Shown in pieces: positions 55,761-64,000 of a stretch of DNA of 64,000 nt (positions are counted from its first letter, which is position 1; every line of letters begins with the position of its first letter). Made by a program: the position numbers and the translations under genes. Source of the DNA: Verrucomicrobiota bacterium (GTDB taxonomy: Bacteria; Verrucomicrobiota; Verrucomicrobiia; Limisphaerales; VHDF01). Location of the stretch: positions 1 through 64,000 of the forward strand of contig VHDF01000006.1 of the NCBI GenBank assembly GCA_016871495.1, read 5' to 3'. The notes beneath the pieces were generated by a model that worked only from the letters and a program-made list of their open reading frames with translations, was not told where the DNA came from and ran no database searches.

Positions 55761-56963
55761 ATGCCCACGAGACTTCATGCCGCCCTGGCGCTTTGCCTTC
55801 TGACGCCCGCGTCCCACGCCGCCGAGCCCTCGTTCAAGAAAATCAAACTCACGAGCGAGTTCCTCTCGGAAGGCGCCCACTTCGCCGACTTCAATCGCGA
55901 CGGTCACACGGACCTCGTCGCCGGCTGGCAATGGTTCGCCGGTCCGGATTTCAAGACCGTCCACGAATTCAATCCACCCCCCGCCAAACCGTTCGACCCC
56001 GCCAAGAGTTACTCGGATTATTTCCTCACTTACACCTACGATTTCAACGCCGACCACTGGCCGGACATTCTGGTCTTCTCCTGGCCGGGCAAGGACGCCT
56101 CGTGGTACGCCAATCCCAAGAACAAGCCCGGGCACTGGACCAAGCATGTCCTCGTGCCGGAGGCGGACAACGAATCGCCCCAACTCGGCGACCTGAACGG
56201 CGACGGCAAACCCGAACTCATTTGTCATACCGGCGGAAGATTCGGTTTCGCCGAACTCGATTGGAAAGACCCCACCAAGCCCGCCACCTTCCGCCCGATC
56301 TCCCCGGAGGATAAGAAGAACATCCAGCGATACACGCACGGATACGGTTTCGGCGACATCAATGGCGATGGCCGTCCCGATTTGTTGGAGAAGAATGGAT
56401 GGTGGGAACAGCCCTCTGACTACCGCACCGCCGGCCTTTGGAAGCTTCGTCGCGTGCCTTTCGCCCCTGAAGGACTGCGCGGTGGCGGCCAAATGCTCGT
56501 CTACGACGTGAACGGCGACGGTCGCAACGACGTCATCACCAGCTGGGACGCTCATGGCTACGGCGTCGCCTGGTACGAACAGCGTCCCGGCGGCGGATTT
56601 ACCGAGCACATCCTCGTCAACACCAAGCCTTCCGACAATCCCTACGGCGTCCAGTTCACTCAGCCGCATGCCATGGTTCTGGCCGATATCAACGGGGACG
56701 GCCTCAAGGATTTCGTGACGGGCAAACGGTTCTGGGCGCATGGCCCCGCGGGAGACGCGGAACCCTCGGCGCCGGCCGTTCTCTACTGGTTCGAACTCAA
56801 GCGCACTCCGGGCGGCGCTTCTTTCATCCCCCATCTCATCGACAACGACTCCGGAGTCGGAACCCAGATCACCGCCGGCGACCTCAATGGTGACGGCAAG
56901 CTGGACATTCTGTCCTCCAACAAAAAAGGCTTCTCGGTTTTCCTGCAACAACCCTCGCGTTAA
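55761..56963 (+). CDS. Secreted FG-GAP/VCBS repeat protein
   Basis: A 400-residue exported protein (signal peptide ending SHA|AEPSF). It carries repeated calcium-binding loops of the type DLNGDGKPEL, DINGDGRPDL, DVNGDGRNDV, DINGDGLKDF and DLNGDGKLDI, spaced as in integrin-like FG-GAP propellers. It is likely a surface-binding protein; no catalytic site is seen. It precedes the second giant heme-binding protein by 16 bases in the same direction and probably shares its transcript. Confidence 0.88.
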   Translation: MPTRLHAALALCLLTPASHAAEPSFKKIKLTSEFLSEGAHFADFNRDGHTDLVAGWQWFAGPDFKTVHEFNPPPAKPFDPAKSYSDYFLTYTYDFNADHWPDILVFSWPGKDASWYANPKNKPGHWTKHVLVPEADNESPQLGDLNGDGKPELICHTGGRFGFAELDWKDPTKPATFRPISPEDKKNIQRYTHGYGFGDINGDGRPDLLEKNGWWEQPSDYRTAGLWKLRRVPFAPEGLRGGGQMLVYDVNGDGRNDVITSWDAHGYGVAWYEQRPGGGFTEHILVNTKPSDNPYGVQFTQPHAMVLADINGDGLKDFVTGKRFWAHGPAGDAEPSAPAVLYWFELKRTPGGASFIPHLIDNDSGVGTQITAGDLNGDGKLDILSSNKKGFSVFLQQPSR

Positions 56964-56979
56964 CGCCCAACCCGACTCT

Positions 56980-59900
56980 ATGCGAATCCATCCCTCCCTT
57001 TGCGTCCTCGGACTTGCCGGAGCCCTCGCGTTCTCCGGATGTGAATCCCAGTCGACCTCCTCGCGCGCGACGGCCGCCCCCGGCAAAGCCCCGGCGTCGC
57101 GTCCGCTCCTCCAACTCCGCGATGGCGATCGTGCCGTGTTCATCGGCGACACGTTCATCGAGCGCGAACAAACCTACGGGTGGATCGAATTGATGCTGAC
57201 CACCGCGTTCCGCGACCAGAAAGTGACCTTTCGCAACCTCGGCTGGAGCGCGGACCTGCCCGATGGCGAATCAAGGCTTGGCCTCAGCCTCGGGCAAGCC
57301 GGCACCGAACCTCCCGGCGAGGCCTGGATGCTCCTCCAAAAGCAAATTCAAGAAACCAAGCCGACCGTGGCGTTTCTCGGCTACGGCATGGCCGCCTCGT
57401 TTGCCGGAGAAGCGGGTTTGCCCAAATTCCGCCAGGACTACCTGCGCCTGCTCGATACGCTCGAAAAGCTCTCGCCGGGCTGCCGTGCCGTCGTGCTCAG
57501 CCCCGTCCGGCACCTCCGCCTGCCCGCGCCGCTCCCAAACCCCGACCGCCACAACCAGCAGCTCCAAAACATCACGCAAGCACTGCGAGAGATCGCCGGC
57601 AGCCGCAACCTGCCCTTTGTCTCGTTGTTGGAAGCTTTCCCCGTTCAAACCAATCCCACCACGGCCACCCGCTGGAGTGACAACGGCATTCACCTGACGA
57701 GCGACGGTTATCGTCAACTGGCTTCCTTCCTCGAAAAAGCACTCGGCCTCTCCGCCGCCGCCCCTTCGTCCGCGCACGCCGAAACCGTACGCAGAATCAT
57801 TCTGCGCAAAAACGAGTTTTACTTCCACCGTTCCCGGCCCGCCAACATGGCCTATATCTTCGGCTTCCGCCGTGCCGAACAAGGACGTAATGCCGTCGAA
57901 ATGCCCAAATTCGACCCCCTCATCGAAGCCGAGGAGAAGAAAATCTGGCAGTTGGTCCGTTCCGTCGGTGACGCGCGCTTCCAACCCGGCGCCCATCTCC
58001 AACCCGCGGAACTCCGCGACAAACCGGCCGCCGCGCGCTTCACGCCTCAACCCAAACCCCAGTTCACCGTGGCCGAGGGATTCGAGGTCACGCTCTGGGC
58101 GGAAAACCCCTTGCTGGCCAAACCCATTCAAATGAATTTCGACCCGGCGGGACGACTCTGGATCGCCAGTTCGGAAGTGTACCCCCAGGTCGAACCTGGC
58201 CAGGCCGCGCACGATAAAATCATCGTCCTCGAAGACACCACTGGCGGCGGCAAAGCCGATAAAGCGACGGTCTTCGCCGACGGTTTGCTCATCCCCACCG
58301 GCGTCATCCCCGGCGATGGCGGCGTCTATGTCGCGCAAAGCACGGAATTGCTGTTTCTCAAAGACACGGACGGCGATGGCAAAGCCGACCAACGTCGGGT
58401 TGTGCTGAGCGGATTCGGCACGGAGGATACCCACCACAATCTGCACACACTGCGCTGGGGCCACGATGGTCGTCTTTGGATGAACCAATCGATCTACACC
58501 CGCACGGAAACCGAAACACCCCACGGCGTTTTCCGCTTGCGCAGCGGCGGCGTCATGGCCCTCAGAACCGGCACGCTCGAAATCGACACCCTCTACCGAG
58601 GCTGGGTCAACTCGTGGGGACATCAATTCGACGCTTTCGGACAATCCTTCGCCACGGACGGCGCGGGCGGAGCCGGAATCAATTGGGCGATGCCCGGCGG
58701 CATGTATTTCACTTACGCGCGCGCCCGCCGCATCCTTCCGAGCGTCAGCCCTGGAAGTTATCCGAAATTTGCGTCCCTGGACATCGTCCACAGCCCTCAT
58801 TTCCCGGACGATTGGCAGGGGGATGCCATCACGTGCGATTTTCGCGCTCACCGCGTGGCCCGATTCAAACTGAGCGAACAAGGCGCCGCTTACACCGCGA
58901 AGGAAATGCCCGAGCTTTTGCGAACTTCGGACGTGACGTTCCGCCCGATCGACGCCCGTTTTGGGCCCGACGGTGCCCTCTATATCGCCGACTGGAGTAA
59001 TCCAATCATCCAGCACGGCGAAGTCGATTTCCGCGATCCCCGGCGGGATCACGAACACGGCCGCGTCTGGCGCGTGCGCTGGAAAGGCAAGCCGCTCCAA
59101 ACCCAGCGCGATTGGACCCGAGCTGAGAGTCCGGTGCTTCTGGGCGAGTTGCTTTCTCCCAACGGTTTCAATCGTGCCCAGGCCAATCGTGTCCTCACCG
59201 AACGCGGATCCCGAATCCTCCCCGATTTGGATCGTTGGAGTCGCGGGCAAACCTCCGAACCCGCGCTCCTTCAAGCGCTCTGGATGTATCAAGCCATCGA
59301 TCGCCCGAACCCGCCTCTCCTGCGCCGCCTGCTGTCCGCCCAGGACGCGCGCGTCCGGGCCGCCGCCGTCCGGGTGCTCGGCGAATGGGCGCCACAACCG
59401 GCGCTGACCGATCCCTTCCGCCTGACCGATGGCTCGGGCAGCACACTCCTTCCCGTCACAGTCCGCCCACCCTCCATCGACAAAAACGAGGCGATTCAAC
59501 TCCTCGGCCAAGCCGCCGCCGACTCCCATTTGCGTGTCAAAGTCGAGGCCGTGCGAGCCCTCGCGCGCATTCCCGATCTGCGCAGCGTTGAAATCGTCCT
59601 CGGCCTGATCGACTCCATGGCATCTGACTCGTTCCTCGACTACGCTCTCTGGCTTTCCATCAATGACCTCTCCCGCGTTTGGCTCGCCTCCTTGGAATCG
59701 GGTGCCTGGAAAATGGATGGACGCCAGAAGCAGCTCGAATTCGCCCTCAAATCGATCGAACCCGCCCAAGCCAGCTTGGTTCTCAACCGGCTCACCACCA
59801 GCAATCCACTGCCGGCGGACGGATCCGGACCGTGGATCGAACTGATCGGTCAAGCCGGGGATGCCAGACAGTTAGCCCGGCTCTTTCAACAGGTGCTCTC

Positions 59901-61431
59901 CAAGGGTTTCCACGACAACGCCGCTCCCCGTGCTCTCGGCGCCCTCGCCGAAGCCGCGCGGCTGCGCAACTCGAAACCGGAGGGTTCGCTCGATGGACTC
60001 AGCACCCTTCTCCAATCCTCGCCTGAACCGATCCGCATCGCCGCCATCCGGCTCGCCGGGCGCTGGAAACAAATGAGCGCCGGCGGCGTTCTCGCGGCGC
60101 TGGCCGGCGGTGAATCAACCCCTCTCGAAACCCGGCAAGTGGCCGTGGATGCCCTCCGCGAAATGGGAGGCAGCGAAGGCATAGGCCTCTTGCGCCAAGT
60201 CTTCTCCCAATCGTCGTCCGCTCCCGTCCGGCGTTCCTCCGCCATCGCCCTCGCCTCACTCGGGTTGCAAAACGCGCTGCCCCAAGTGATCGAAATGCTC
60301 GGCGCCACCACGCAGGAGCAGGACGCCATCCAACTCTGGCGCCAACTGCTCACGATTCGGGGAGCCGGACCTGTCCTCGCCAAAGGCTTGCCCCCGTCCG
60401 GGCTTCCGGAAGCAGTCGCCAAAGCCGGCTTGCGCGTGGCTCGCGAGGGAGGACGCAAGGAACCTGAACTCATTCTCGCCCTCGCCCAAACCGCCGGCTC
60501 CACTCCCGAGGAGAAAGTCCTGTCCGCCCGTGAACTGCAAGAATGGGCTGCCACCGCCATGTCCAAAGGCGACGCCCACCGGGGCGAATTCATCTACCGT
60601 CGCCCCGAACTCGGATGCATCACCTGCCACTCCATCGGCGGGGCGGGCGGCAAAGTCGGCCCCGACATGACAAGCATCGGCGCCAGCGCGCCACCCGATT
60701 ATCTCATCGAATCCTTGCTCTACCCAAACGCCAAAATCAAAGAGGGTTACCACTCGGTCCGCGTCGATACCATCGACGACCAGGAACTCAGCGGCATTCT
60801 CGTGCGCGACACCGCGAACGAACTGATCCTTCGCAACGCTCAAAACACCGAAGTTTCAGTCGCCAAAAACAAAATCAAAGCGCGAGCCAACGGCCTCTCC
60901 CTGATGCCCTCCGGTCTCGCCGATCCGCTCTCCGCGGAGGAAAAGTTGGACCTGTTTCGATTCATGGCCGAACTCGGAAAAGCAGGCGCTTTCGACGCGT
61001 CGAAAGGCGGTGTCGCCCGGCTCTGGCGCTTGCGCGGCCGCGTCCACACCGAGGACCAAGCCGGTGCCGATGCTCCTCCGGCGCGTCCAGTGGATGACCG
61101 TTTCTGGATGCCGGTCTTCTCGCTCGTCGACGGCCGCCTCCCCAAGAGCGAGATGGCACCCATCGTGGAAAACGCGAATCGCGGCACCAGCGCAGTCGGA
61201 CTCCACGCCGCCACCCAATTCCAAACTTCCAAGAGCGGTCCGGTCCTGCTCAAGATCTCCGGCGTCAGCAAAGTTCAGTCCTGGATCAACGACAAATCGA
61301 TGGGCACTAACCCGGAGATCAAGGTGGAATTGCCCGCAGGACGCCACACGCTCATTCTGCGGCTCGATCCACGTCAGTTGCCGGACGATCTGGCCGTGCG
61401 CTCCACTGACGTTACCTTCGAAACGCAATAA
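56980..61431 (+). CDS. Giant secreted protein: SGNH/GDSL hydrolase domain + PVC-type propeller + HEAT repeats + cytochrome c domain
   Basis: A 1483-residue protein starting at ATG 56980 with an N-terminal leader and possible lipoprotein cysteine (ALAFSGCESQ). Residues about 45-265 look like an SGNH hydrolase (VFIGDTFIEREQ, TVAFLGYGMAASFAG, DNGIHLTSDGYRQLA with the catalytic D and H). Residues about 365-700 are the propeller dehydrogenase domain (GFEVTLWAENPLLAKPIQMN, DTDGDGKADQRRV), followed by HEAT repeats and a heme c motif CITCH (1213-1217) with GPDMTSIGASAP. It has the same plan as the protein at 2484-7184 except for its N-terminal hydrolase. Confidence 0.9.
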   Translation: MRIHPSLCVLGLAGALAFSGCESQSTSSRATAAPGKAPASRPLLQLRDGDRAVFIGDTFIEREQTYGWIELMLTTAFRDQKVTFRNLGWSADLPDGESRLGLSLGQAGTEPPGEAWMLLQKQIQETKPTVAFLGYGMAASFAGEAGLPKFRQDYLRLLDTLEKLSPGCRAVVLSPVRHLRLPAPLPNPDRHNQQLQNITQALREIAGSRNLPFVSLLEAFPVQTNPTTATRWSDNGIHLTSDGYRQLASFLEKALGLSAAAPSSAHAETVRRIILRKNEFYFHRSRPANMAYIFGFRRAEQGRNAVEMPKFDPLIEAEEKKIWQLVRSVGDARFQPGAHLQPAELRDKPAAARFTPQPKPQFTVAEGFEVTLWAENPLLAKPIQMNFDPAGRLWIASSEVYPQVEPGQAAHDKIIVLEDTTGGGKADKATVFADGLLIPTGVIPGDGGVYVAQSTELLFLKDTDGDGKADQRRVVLSGFGTEDTHHNLHTLRWGHDGRLWMNQSIYTRTETETPHGVFRLRSGGVMALRTGTLEIDTLYRGWVNSWGHQFDAFGQSFATDGAGGAGINWAMPGGMYFTYARARRILPSVSPGSYPKFASLDIVHSPHFPDDWQGDAITCDFRAHRVARFKLSEQGAAYTAKEMPELLRTSDVTFRPIDARFGPDGALYIADWSNPIIQHGEVDFRDPRRDHEHGRVWRVRWKGKPLQTQRDWTRAESPVLLGELLSPNGFNRAQANRVLTERGSRILPDLDRWSRGQTSEPALLQALWMYQAIDRPNPPLLRRLLSAQDARVRAAAVRVLGEWAPQPALTDPFRLTDGSGSTLLPVTVRPPSIDKNEAIQLLGQAAADSHLRVKVEAVRALARIPDLRSVEIVLGLIDSMASDSFLDYALWLSINDLSRVWLASLESGAWKMDGRQKQLEFALKSIEPAQASLVLNRLTTSNPLPADGSGPWIELIGQAGDARQLARLFQQVLSKGFHDNAAPRALGALAEAARLRNSKPEGSLDGLSTLLQSSPEPIRIAAIRLAGRWKQMSAGGVLAALAGGESTPLETRQVAVDALREMGGSEGIGLLRQVFSQSSSAPVRRSSAIALASLGLQNALPQVIEMLGATTQEQDAIQLWRQLLTIRGAGPVLAKGLPPSGLPEAVAKAGLRVAREGGRKEPELILALAQTAGSTPEEKVLSARELQEWAATAMSKGDAHRGEFIYRRPELGCITCHSIGGAGGKVGPDMTSIGASAPPDYLIESLLYPNAKIKEGYHSVRVDTIDDQELSGILVRDTANELILRNAQNTEVSVAKNKIKARANGLSLMPSGLADPLSAEEKLDLFRFMAELGKAGAFDASKGGVARLWRLRGRVHTEDQAGADAPPARPVDDRFWMPVFSLVDGRLPKSEMAPIVENANRGTSAVGLHAATQFQTSKSGPVLLKISGVSKVQSWINDKSMGTNPEIKVELPAGRHTLILRLDPRQLPDDLAVRSTDVTFETQ

Positions 61432-61445
61432 CACTCAGCTCGACG

Positions 61446-61716
61446 AGAATCCCAACGGGATTCCGTAACGAAGCCCAAGGTTGCGAGGAACGAGCTACCT
61501 TGGGTCACAGTCCGCCAACGGAAACCAACCCCAACGGGGTTGTGACGAAATCCTATTCCCGTTGGGCGGGGTAAAGCCACAACCGCGTTGCGGTTGAATC
61601 GATTTCCAAACGGCAACCCAAGGTAGCTCGTGCCTCGCAACCTTGGGCTGGAGGACACGATCCCTTTGGGATTGAAGGCGGGATTCTGTCGCCGTGGGCA
61701 TCGCTCATGCCGTGAC
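61446..61716 (+). repeat. Structured 270-base repeat, copy 2
   Basis: The main stem pairs 61474-61505 with 61616-61647 (31 of 32 bases), with hairpins AATCCCAACGGGATT, AACCCCAACGGGGTT, CAACCGCGTTGCGGTTG and AATCCCTTTGGGATT. Order and length match copy 1 at 48271-48540. It starts 15 bases after the stop of the giant protein, so its transcript may carry this structure. Confidence 0.9.
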
Positions 61717-61922: not shown

Positions 61923-63539
61923 TCACCGATGCACAGCTTTGGCCCGCACTCGACCCGCCGAGCACCATCCCAGCGAGACCACGATCACCATGAGAATCAC
62001 CCAGTGGGCATGCTTGAGAAAACCCAAGACGGTCCAGAAAAACCACTGGGAGAAGAACCACACCTTCACGGCGGGAGTGTTCGCCTCCGCAGCCTGAGCC
62101 ACGACACCCCAAGCAAAGTCTCGAGCCACTGCGGCGACTCCTAACGCTGCTTCCCAACCCAACGCGCCAAACCCAAACGCCCACCACCCCACCGCCAAGC
62201 TGCCAAAGGCCAAGACACCCGCACCGATTCCCCACAAACTGAGACTCAGCACACCGATGGTAATGCCTCCCACCGCCACCGGCGCAATGGCCACGCCACC
62301 CAGGGCAATCAACGGGCTGATGGCGAAATCTCCCACAGCGATCCAACCTACCACCCGCTGACGACCCGCCGTTCCGCCGTGATCTCCCATGGGCCCAATC
62401 GCAACCAAGGGCAAATTCAGAAATCGCGACGTCGAAAGATAAGCCACCCTTGGCCACCGCTGAGCCCCTTCTGAATCCAGCCCTTCGGCATCCACGGTCC
62501 CCGTGGCTTTCCTGATCCGCAAGACCTCCCGGTCGATGAAGGAACCATAACCCAAAATCGTGCCCACCAGCACAGCGGTCCAGGCGAACACTCCCAACAC
62601 GATGGCCCAGGCCGAGGGCGTATACCACTTCCCCGCGCCCATCAGTACCAAGGCCAGCCCAAGACTCATCAACCAGCAAAACAAGACCACCCGCCTCCCG
62701 TGCTTCCGCAGCCAGGCTCGCTCCGCTTCACTGTGACCCGTGGACGCCGCCGCGCTTGCGCTCAACCATCCGACCATCAATCCGGCCACGGGTCCCAGGA
62801 CCGGCCACGAGCTCGTGGCTGTAAAAAGCCCCTTGACCCCTGCCGTTCCATGTCCCGCCACAGCGCTCGAAGCCGCGGCGGCTTCCACTCCGCTGGAAGC
62901 CAGAGCCGGCAATCCGGCAAGCACGGCGGCTCGAAATGCCGCGGAAGGCTTGGTTCGCTCCAAAGAGGTTTCAACCCACACCGACAGTTCCTGCCGCAAC
63001 ATGGCGCGCCCGCGGGAAAGGCGTTGCTTCACAGCGTCCTCGGAAATCTCCAGCGCATCGGCGACAGCGGCCACCGACTGGCCTTGACGGTAAAAAAGCA
63101 CCAAGGGCTCGCGATACGGTTCCGGTAACTCCTCCAGCGAACGCCACAGAAGCTGTTCTTCCTCCCGCGAGATGGCGGACGCGGATGGATCGGCGTCAAG
63201 GCTCGCCGAATCTTCCGCGGCTTCCAAAGGCAAAGGCGATCCCCCACGGCGATGGTCACGTCGCGCCGCGCTGGCGGCCAGATGGCGGACAATGCCGCAG
63301 AGCCAGGATCGAATCTTCGAGGGCTCGCGGAGTTCGTCCACCTGCCGCCAAGCTGCCAGGAAAGCCTCCTGTGCCAAATCCTCGGACCGCGCTAGGCTGC
63401 CGCACGAACTGAATGCAACCGAACACAGGAGGCTTTGGTAACGCTCTACGATCCGTCCAAACGCCTCCCGATCACCCCCGCGCGATCGTTCCCAAAGTTC
63501 AAGGTCGGTCTCCAGATGGGGCGAGGCTTCAATCTTCAT
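61923..63539 (-). CDS. ECF RNA polymerase sigma factor with C-terminal membrane domain
   Basis: A 538-residue protein. Residues about 1-190 are an ECF sigma factor: region 2 GGDREAFGRIVERYQSLLCS ... SEDLAQEAFLAAWRQV and region 4 LPEPYREPLVLFYRQGQSVA ... EISEDAVKQRLSRGRAMLR. The remaining 340 residues have several membrane helices (VVLFCWLMSLGLALVLMGAG, AWAIVLGVFAWTAVLVGTIL) and a long glycine/alanine-rich hydrophobic run (SPLIALGGVAIAPVAVGG ...). No anti-sigma gene is adjacent, so the tail may anchor or sense. The usual length for ECF factors is about 180-200 residues. Confidence 0.9.
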   Translation of the reverse strand: MKIEASPHLETDLELWERSRGGDREAFGRIVERYQSLLCSVAFSSCGSLARSEDLAQEAFLAAWRQVDELREPSKIRSWLCGIVRHLAASAARRDHRRGGSPLPLEAAEDSASLDADPSASAISREEEQLLWRSLEELPEPYREPLVLFYRQGQSVAAVADALEISEDAVKQRLSRGRAMLRQELSVWVETSLERTKPSAAFRAAVLAGLPALASSGVEAAAASSAVAGHGTAGVKGLFTATSSWPVLGPVAGLMVGWLSASAAASTGHSEAERAWLRKHGRRVVLFCWLMSLGLALVLMGAGKWYTPSAWAIVLGVFAWTAVLVGTILGYGSFIDREVLRIRKATGTVDAEGLDSEGAQRWPRVAYLSTSRFLNLPLVAIGPMGDHGGTAGRQRVVGWIAVGDFAISPLIALGGVAIAPVAVGGITIGVLSLSLWGIGAGVLAFGSLAVGWWAFGFGALGWEAALGVAAVARDFAWGVVAQAAEANTPAVKVWFFSQWFFWTVLGFLKHAHWVILMVIVVSLGWCSAGRVRAKAVHR

Positions 63540-63661
63540 GCTGCCACCGAGTGGTCATGAGCATGGAAAAGGTGACTCGATTACTGCACCTCGAAACAGG
63601 GTTGAGACAAACCGCGAACCTCGACAACCCTGCGCGGAGAAAGGCCGGTGGCCATCAGCCA

Positions 63662-63992
63662 TCAACCATCGTAATCGAGTGACCCCAATACGCCCATGAA
63701 AGCGCCCAGATACTCGGCAATGCTGCCCCCGGTGCGCAATGTAAGCGACGCGCAAGCCTTGCCTGACGCCTCCGGTGGCGTAACCCATATCGAAGGTGAG
63801 TGCGCGCGCTCCATTGGCGATGGACTGCCACTCCTTCTCCACGTGCACGCCGGGAAACTGCTCTTTCGCCAACTCGCGCCATTGCTGCACCGACGGGGGC
63901 GCACTGGAGGGCGGTCGTTCCTCTCCGGGCTTCAATTTCCGCTCGGGAATGTCGTTCGGATGGAGCAACGTGAGTGTAATCGTCGCCTTCAT
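63662..63992 (-). CDS. Hypothetical protein, probably frameshifted, near window end
   Basis: From ATG 63992 the frame reads MKATITLTLLHPNDIPERKL and continues to about ATGGVRQGLRVAYI. The sense then passes to another frame ending GSIAEYLGAFMGVLGSLDYD at 63662. Removing one base of the CCCCC run at 63726-63730 joins them into one protein of about 109 residues; the unshifted frame would end at 63555. The family is not recognised. The 63540-63661 gap should hold the sigma factor promoter. Confidence 0.5.
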
Positions 63993-64000
63993 CTGTTCCT

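Follow-up and report, generated by a model that had tools for sequence, protein, structure and literature searches.

The window, by which we mean the whole 64,000 nt stretch of DNA analysed here (host genome 5.06 Mb in 201 contigs), contains on its reverse strand at 61923-63539 a single uninterrupted open reading frame of 538 residues, annotated as an ECF sigma factor with a membrane tail on the basis of the single frame and of full-length relatives in the same order. All features of this gene given below lie on the same strand. Sigma region 2 is found at residues 30-97 (63249-63452; PF04542, Sigma70_r2, E 1e-14) and region 4 at residues 129-181 (62997-63155; PF08281, Sigma70_r4_2, E 2e-12), both above cut-off and without region 3 domains, the combination that identifies an ECF factor; TIGR02937 scores 83.7 bits against a cut-off of 42.9, and the closest solved structures by sequence are ordinary ECF factors, e.g. 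SigW and RpoE. Judged from its sequence, the sigma core looks ordinary and functional. The open frame runs on from regions 2 and 4 into a hydrophobic tail of ~345 residues, which bears out the original prediction that both reside in one chain. A frameshift or a fused neighbour gene was considered as the origin of this arrangement and is ruled out by the full-length relatives.

The tail (residues 191-538) consists of 17% Ala, 13% Gly and 11.5% Val, matches no Pfam family at E <= 1 and no NCBIfam model, and has hydrophobic peaks at 284-302, 312-330, 410-428 and 503-521. Immediately behind region 4 lies its most conserved piece, a segment (residues 187-212, 62904-62981; consensus FVEGALxRTxPGxAFTxGVLAALP) that is helical in the structure model and in which L193, P198, F202 and V206 are invariant across an alignment of 72 sequences. 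Beyond it are a flexible Ala/Gly/Lys-rich linker (residues 215-243, 62811-62897; pLDDT < 50 at 215-242); a hydrophobic helix A of uncertain membrane role, taken from the model (residues 245-266, 62742-62807); TM helices B (residues 283-305, 62625-62693) and C (residues 311-333, 62541-62609), both supported by hydrophobicity and the model and joined by a loop of only about 5 residues; a net positive GLPL cap delineated by alignment and charge counts (residues 366-397, 62349-62444); a predicted hydrophobic β-solenoid (residues 398-483, 62091-62348) built of pentads of the form [G/x]-hydrophobic-A/S-hydrophobic-G, identified by AlphaFold2 (pLDDT ~97) and by column statistics on 83 sequences; and TM helix D (residues 509-528, 61956-62015; model and charge counts), followed by a positively charged C-terminus. 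Interdomain contacts in the full model are unreliable (pTM 0.50). Of the several membrane helices originally proposed, two are clear ahead of the Gly-Ala stretch (about 283-305 and 311-333) and one after it (about 509-528), while 245-266 is doubtful. The Gly-Ala stretch itself had been regarded as just membrane, a description that has to be replaced: it is a pentad/decad repeat with a predicted β-solenoid fold, and it also occurs without a sigma core.

The gene just upstream (63555-63998, reverse strand) appears split over two frames (...MGYATGGVRQGLRVAYIA and ...LRTGGSIAEYLGAFMGVLGSLDYDG), which may reflect a frameshift or an assembly error. In the downstream intergenic region (61450-61680), CCCAAGGT...ACCTTGGG-like sequences form an inverted pair resembling a REP element, and beyond it a very large convergent ORF (56740-61431, forward strand) has a translation that reads as a fusion of esterase-, dehydrogenase- and HEAT-like parts with a c-type cytochrome (CITCH motif).

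Conservation of the fusion and its neighbourhood

The sigma part is matched at E <= 1e-15 in 209 of 320 genomes of the order, and dozens of these matches span the whole protein (about residues 10-525) at 39-54% identity. Searching for relatives with the same tail, we found it complete in 69 of 71 proteins retrieved from the order, a set picked for high scores rather than sampled at random which, together with the window protein, makes up the alignment of 72 sequences (A1). The two exceptions are a truncated protein (L021) and one with a different C-terminal domain (L079:2284-4014). Sigma-type fusions occur in other families of the class as well, and in a named Puniceicoccales genome (L147). 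Because the sigma core is also joined to quite different C-terminal parts, in many cases with the conserved segment kept, the sigma family is modular. Separate copies of the tail in the window's own genome were sought with no convincing result (two matches only, E 0.004 and 0.06), and a search of named genomes with the window tail alone gave 62 pattern matches, 0 of them confirmed.

Reading the translations of the neighbouring ORFs revealed no recognisable anti-sigma gene, in line with the original prediction, and zf-HC2 (PF13490) has 0 matches in the window's own genome, being present in 5 of 14 control genomes. Downstream neighbours of family genes are co-directional in 30 of 41 cases and have no common function. 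A gene for a TPR protein with an N-terminal membrane anchor lies near the sigma gene, mostly directly following it, in 12 of 40 neighbourhoods (L059:4116-4946 and 11 similar loci), and the TPR gene of L075 has a TGTCACC-type element of its own. Neither the window nor the retrieved members of its clade (L043-L049) showed such a gene. The TPR protein may be a partner of the sigma factor.

Promoter-like element upstream of family genes

Upstream of the window gene are a -35-like element, AGTCACC (63571-63577), and a -10-like element, CCAC (63551-63554), offset by 23 nt from the first base of the former. They belong to a two-part pattern (xGTCACC, 15-17 nt, xxAC) present within 60 nt upstream of 61 of 72 family genes, the window gene included, and missing from the remaining 11; controls gave 1 of 71 downstream regions and 1 of 255 neighbouring ORFs. 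The family element can be written as TGTCACC, about 16 nt, CCACTTA, with the offset of 23 in 52 of the 61 sites, and the window element deviates from this consensus in one base, the first. TGTCAC by itself appears in 60 of 71 upstream regions, against 4.2 expected from shuffles. Because this element precedes so many family genes, the sigma part looks functional and, as far as a conserved upstream sequence can indicate, autoregulated. The element mostly lies 33-43 nt before the ATG (about 39 nt), a short distance that suggests a leaderless or nearly leaderless transcript.

Wider scans returned mostly the family's own genes. In 466 kb of neighbourhoods the motif matched 33 times (shuffled control 0), at the start of a family gene in all but one case, the exception (L075, 1031) preceding a TPR gene. 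The window's own genome has 5 matches to WGTCACCTN{14,15}NCAC (control 2), among them the window's own site (L209); a script found no gene start behind the others (L210-L213). Strict patterns yielded 3 and 6 matches in 12 relatives; in the set of six, five immediately precede family genes and the other (L222) has no plausible gene downstream, so that these patterns matched almost only the family's own genes and identified no regulon. Relatives with other tails have [TA]GTCA[CG] before 13 of 20 genes, at unusual distances in L193-L195 (-77 to -94) and L204 (-127). Among those without the element, the three most distant (L196-L198) have TGTAAC instead, followed in two by GTC, which comes near the textbook ECF promoter, in which AAC and CGT are the hallmarks (PMC8103513).

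A predicted β-solenoid shared with kinases and stand-alone proteins

An AlphaFold2 prediction from 83 sequences gives a β-solenoid for the repeat domain (pLDDT ~97 in the solenoid, mean 92.7 over residues 364-538), so that, going by the model, the Gly-Ala stretch is probably not helical. A reading of this stretch as extra TM helices is disfavoured by the strict 5/10-residue pattern and the confident β model. The pentads alternate in pairs with a ten-residue period: in the sigma, kinase and stand-alone groups alike, similarity is far higher at even pentad lags than at odd ones. Modules could be parsed in 69 of 86 sigma, 17 of 18 stand-alone and 18 of 18 kinase proteins, and exactly 18 pentads were counted in 47 of 63 parsable sigma modules (25 of 88 dropped). 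Indel lengths, used as a test of turn size, were mixed, with peaks at both 5 and 10 residues, and the ten-residue turn therefore continues to rest on the decad periodicity. Because the parser requires small residues at positions 3 and 5, pentad composition taken from it is in part circular, and unconstrained alignment columns were used instead. In these, the small positions (401, 406, 412, 417, 422 and onward; 403, 408, 414, 419, 424 and onward) are 0% charged, and charges in the repeat domain are confined to other positions and to the vicinity of its ends. Judging by where charges are tolerated, the large side chains probably point outward.

Structural comparison gave no significant match for the model. 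The best Foldseek match to solved structures (E 0.7) was insignificant, as was the best to viral predictions (E 0.2), where the top TM-scores (0.30) belonged to a YadA-head-like protein and an S74 peptidase protein. VIA-align reached at best Z 4.0 (rmsd 8.6, 127 aligned) and listed γ-carbonic anhydrases, LpxA and GlmU at Z <= 4; pentapeptide-repeat proteins were absent from its list, which excludes nothing. The Pfam pentapeptide repeat had no match in the tail at E <= 1. We take the tail repeat to resemble the YadA-head motif, and pentapeptide-repeat proteins and the YadA-head β-roll share with it short A-x-G-type repeats and a β-solenoid form, predicted in the case of the tail; they differ from the tail in that Pfam finds no match here, the structural matches are insignificant, and the outer positions are hydrophobic rather than polar.

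The module is also found behind Ser/Thr kinases (L118, L120, L126, L131, L159-L180), where it follows the kinase domain and precedes the first TM helix, and also makes up stand-alone proteins some 130-220 aa long (L136, L138, L139, L141-L145, from Deltaproteobacteria, Pirellulales and Competibacteraceae), from which the last TM helix is absent. The Competibacteraceae stand-alone proteins have an N-terminal coiled-coil-like stretch. Named carriers, all metagenome-assembled, are annotated as Lentisphaerae, Akkermansia, Kiritimatiellae, Victivallis, Pirellulales, Deltaproteobacteria and Competibacteraceae. Its occurrence on sigma factors, on kinases and alone suggests that the solenoid is a little-known membrane signalling part.

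Placement of the solenoid relative to the membrane

The solenoid core (406-462, 57 residues) contains zero charged residues in 56 of 71 proteins and one in 13, and is flanked by W399 (92% of the alignment column) and W462 (81%). β-Solenoids rise 4.8 Å per turn; with 10 residues per turn assumed, the charge-free core is predicted to measure about 26-31 Å, near the thickness of a membrane core. The same 4.8 Å turn is given in an excerpt of PMC13123833.

Charges on either side of the core are biased. In the sigma family the N flank is net positive in 71 of 72 proteins, the end of the solenoid net negative in 56 of 71, and the C tail net positive in 68 of 70. In the 18 kinase fusions, which are not independent of one another, the N flank is net positive in 17 and the first stretch after the next TM helix in 16; the stretch between solenoid and next TM helix is neutral (net positive in 6, negative in 5), unlike the sigma family. 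None of the 18 has a TM candidate between kinase and solenoid, the highest 19-residue mean being 0.9. Since the kinase must be cytoplasmic and given these flank charges, the parity of crossings comes out right in both architectures only if the solenoid crosses the membrane or the next segment is re-entrant, an argument that depends on the positive-inside rule. Often 25-39 residues long, the segment that follows the solenoid might form a re-entrant hairpin; the solenoid would then lie at the cytoplasmic face. Taken over sigma and kinase fusions together, the flanking charges suggest that the solenoid crosses. We tentatively propose, with the odds still somewhat against it, a membrane-spanning β-solenoid with 10-residue turns, Ala/Gly inside and large oily residues outside, charge-free for ~30 Å between two tryptophan rings, and serving as a sensing module interchangeable among sigma factors, kinases and small stand-alone proteins.

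A solenoid lying outside the membrane, at its cytoplasmic face, with its oily faces packed on other solenoids or on TM helices as a protein-binding module, seems somewhat unlikely. There are stand-alone versions of 130-220 aa that have no TM helix and could pair with fused ones in this way, and another solenoid fold dimerises through hydrophobic faces that are exposed (PMC13123833); the idea sits poorly, however, with the near-zero charge of the 57-residue core and with a charge asymmetry across that core in two architectures.

Discussion

The anti-sigma extension of IutY-type factors is FecR-like. IutY (ECF243) resembles the window protein in joining sigma factor and membrane regulator in one chain (PMC8999054), and differs from it in that Pfam finds no known anti-sigma domain in the window tail. 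In reviews, ECF48, ECF52, ECF53 and IutY are listed as ECF factors with membrane extensions, and ECF41, ECF42 and ECF57 have soluble ones (PMC8999054). ECF48, ECF52 (SCO4117) and ECF53 share with the window protein an ECF core, a membrane-bound C-terminal extension and the lack of a separate anti-sigma factor (PMC8999054); there the extension carries a zinc-finger anti-sigma domain and 1-2 TM helices, whereas Pfam finds no such domain in the window tail. ECF41, ECF42 and ECF57 also have a regulatory C-terminal extension, made in their case of named domains (SnoaL, TPR, WD40); no SnoaL, TPR or WD40 domain was found by Pfam in the window tail, which is membrane-bound and matches no Pfam or NCBIfam model. 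Membrane extensions on ECF factors are already known; the solenoid tail appears to be a new form of them. No description of this tail or of the sigma family was recognised in the partial texts searched; the main ECF classification may describe the tail, and may already have named the sigma group.

We interpret the protein as a one-component membrane-tethered ECF sigma factor whose tail acts as built-in sensor, anchor and restraint, with release through undocking or cleavage of the linker, and which drives its own promoter (probability roughly 0.6). The fusion, its conservation, the shared promoter element and the absence of a recognised anti-sigma neighbour can be read from the DNA; the solenoid fold and its embedding in the membrane are predictions. 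A probably active sigma core would be followed by the conserved helical segment, the flexible linker and a membrane tail made up of the TM hairpin, the oily β-solenoid, which would sit in the inner membrane and probably cross it, and the last TM helix. In the resting state the core would stay at the membrane, its access to RNA polymerase blocked by the conserved segment behind region 4. The signal would be sensed in or at the membrane and could be the lipid state, a hydrophobic ligand or a partner, for example the TPR protein. It would free the core through undocking or linker cleavage, and the freed sigma factor would drive its own TGTCACC-type promoter, giving positive feedback. The inhibitory action of the tail, its signal and the manner of release we infer; since tail and core are conserved together and no further regulator was seen, a built-in restraint is the simplest interpretation. 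The role of sensor and anchor originally ascribed to the tail is plausible in view of the single membrane-anchored chain, the lack of a recognisable anti-sigma factor and family-wide conservation. It need not be the sole sensor, since the TPR protein encoded beside the sigma gene in 12 of 40 neighbourhoods may be a partner.

The conserved segment (187-212) with the flexible linker (215-243) is compatible with cleavage and also with activity in the tethered state, and each has been weighed as an explanation in its own right. In the former, the tail would be a fused anti-sigma factor and regulated intramembrane proteolysis in or near the membrane would free a soluble core, as for IutY. Linker and TM hairpin do offer a cut site, and proteolysis is the route described for IutY and proposed for ECF48, ECF52 and ECF53 in the excerpt of PMC8999054. 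We nonetheless consider this unlikely: the tail has no zinc-finger or other known anti-sigma domain, a B-C loop of about 5 residues is too short for a periplasmic sensor and leaves a classical periplasmic site-1 cut little target, and the same solenoid is attached to kinases, which need no release, suggesting non-proteolytic signalling. Activity while tethered would make the tail an anchor only, with the sigma factor working near the membrane and control exerted elsewhere, through the autoregulated promoter or the TPR partner. CadC- and ToxR-type regulators act while tethered near the membrane in this manner, and the flexible linker, the conserved promoter element and the neighbouring TPR gene would all agree with it; the segment behind region 4 is strongly conserved, as is solenoid length (18 pentads), which asks for more than an anchor and makes this explanation distinctly improbable.

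If the built-in restraint is correct, this is a large sigma family that carries its own membrane regulator, with a promoter element open to reporter testing. The solenoid is an unnamed module common to two signalling outputs, transcription and protein phosphorylation, across several phyla. Should it indeed span the membrane, it would represent a membrane-protein architecture besides helix bundles and β-barrels, and the list of membrane-protein folds would need a further entry.
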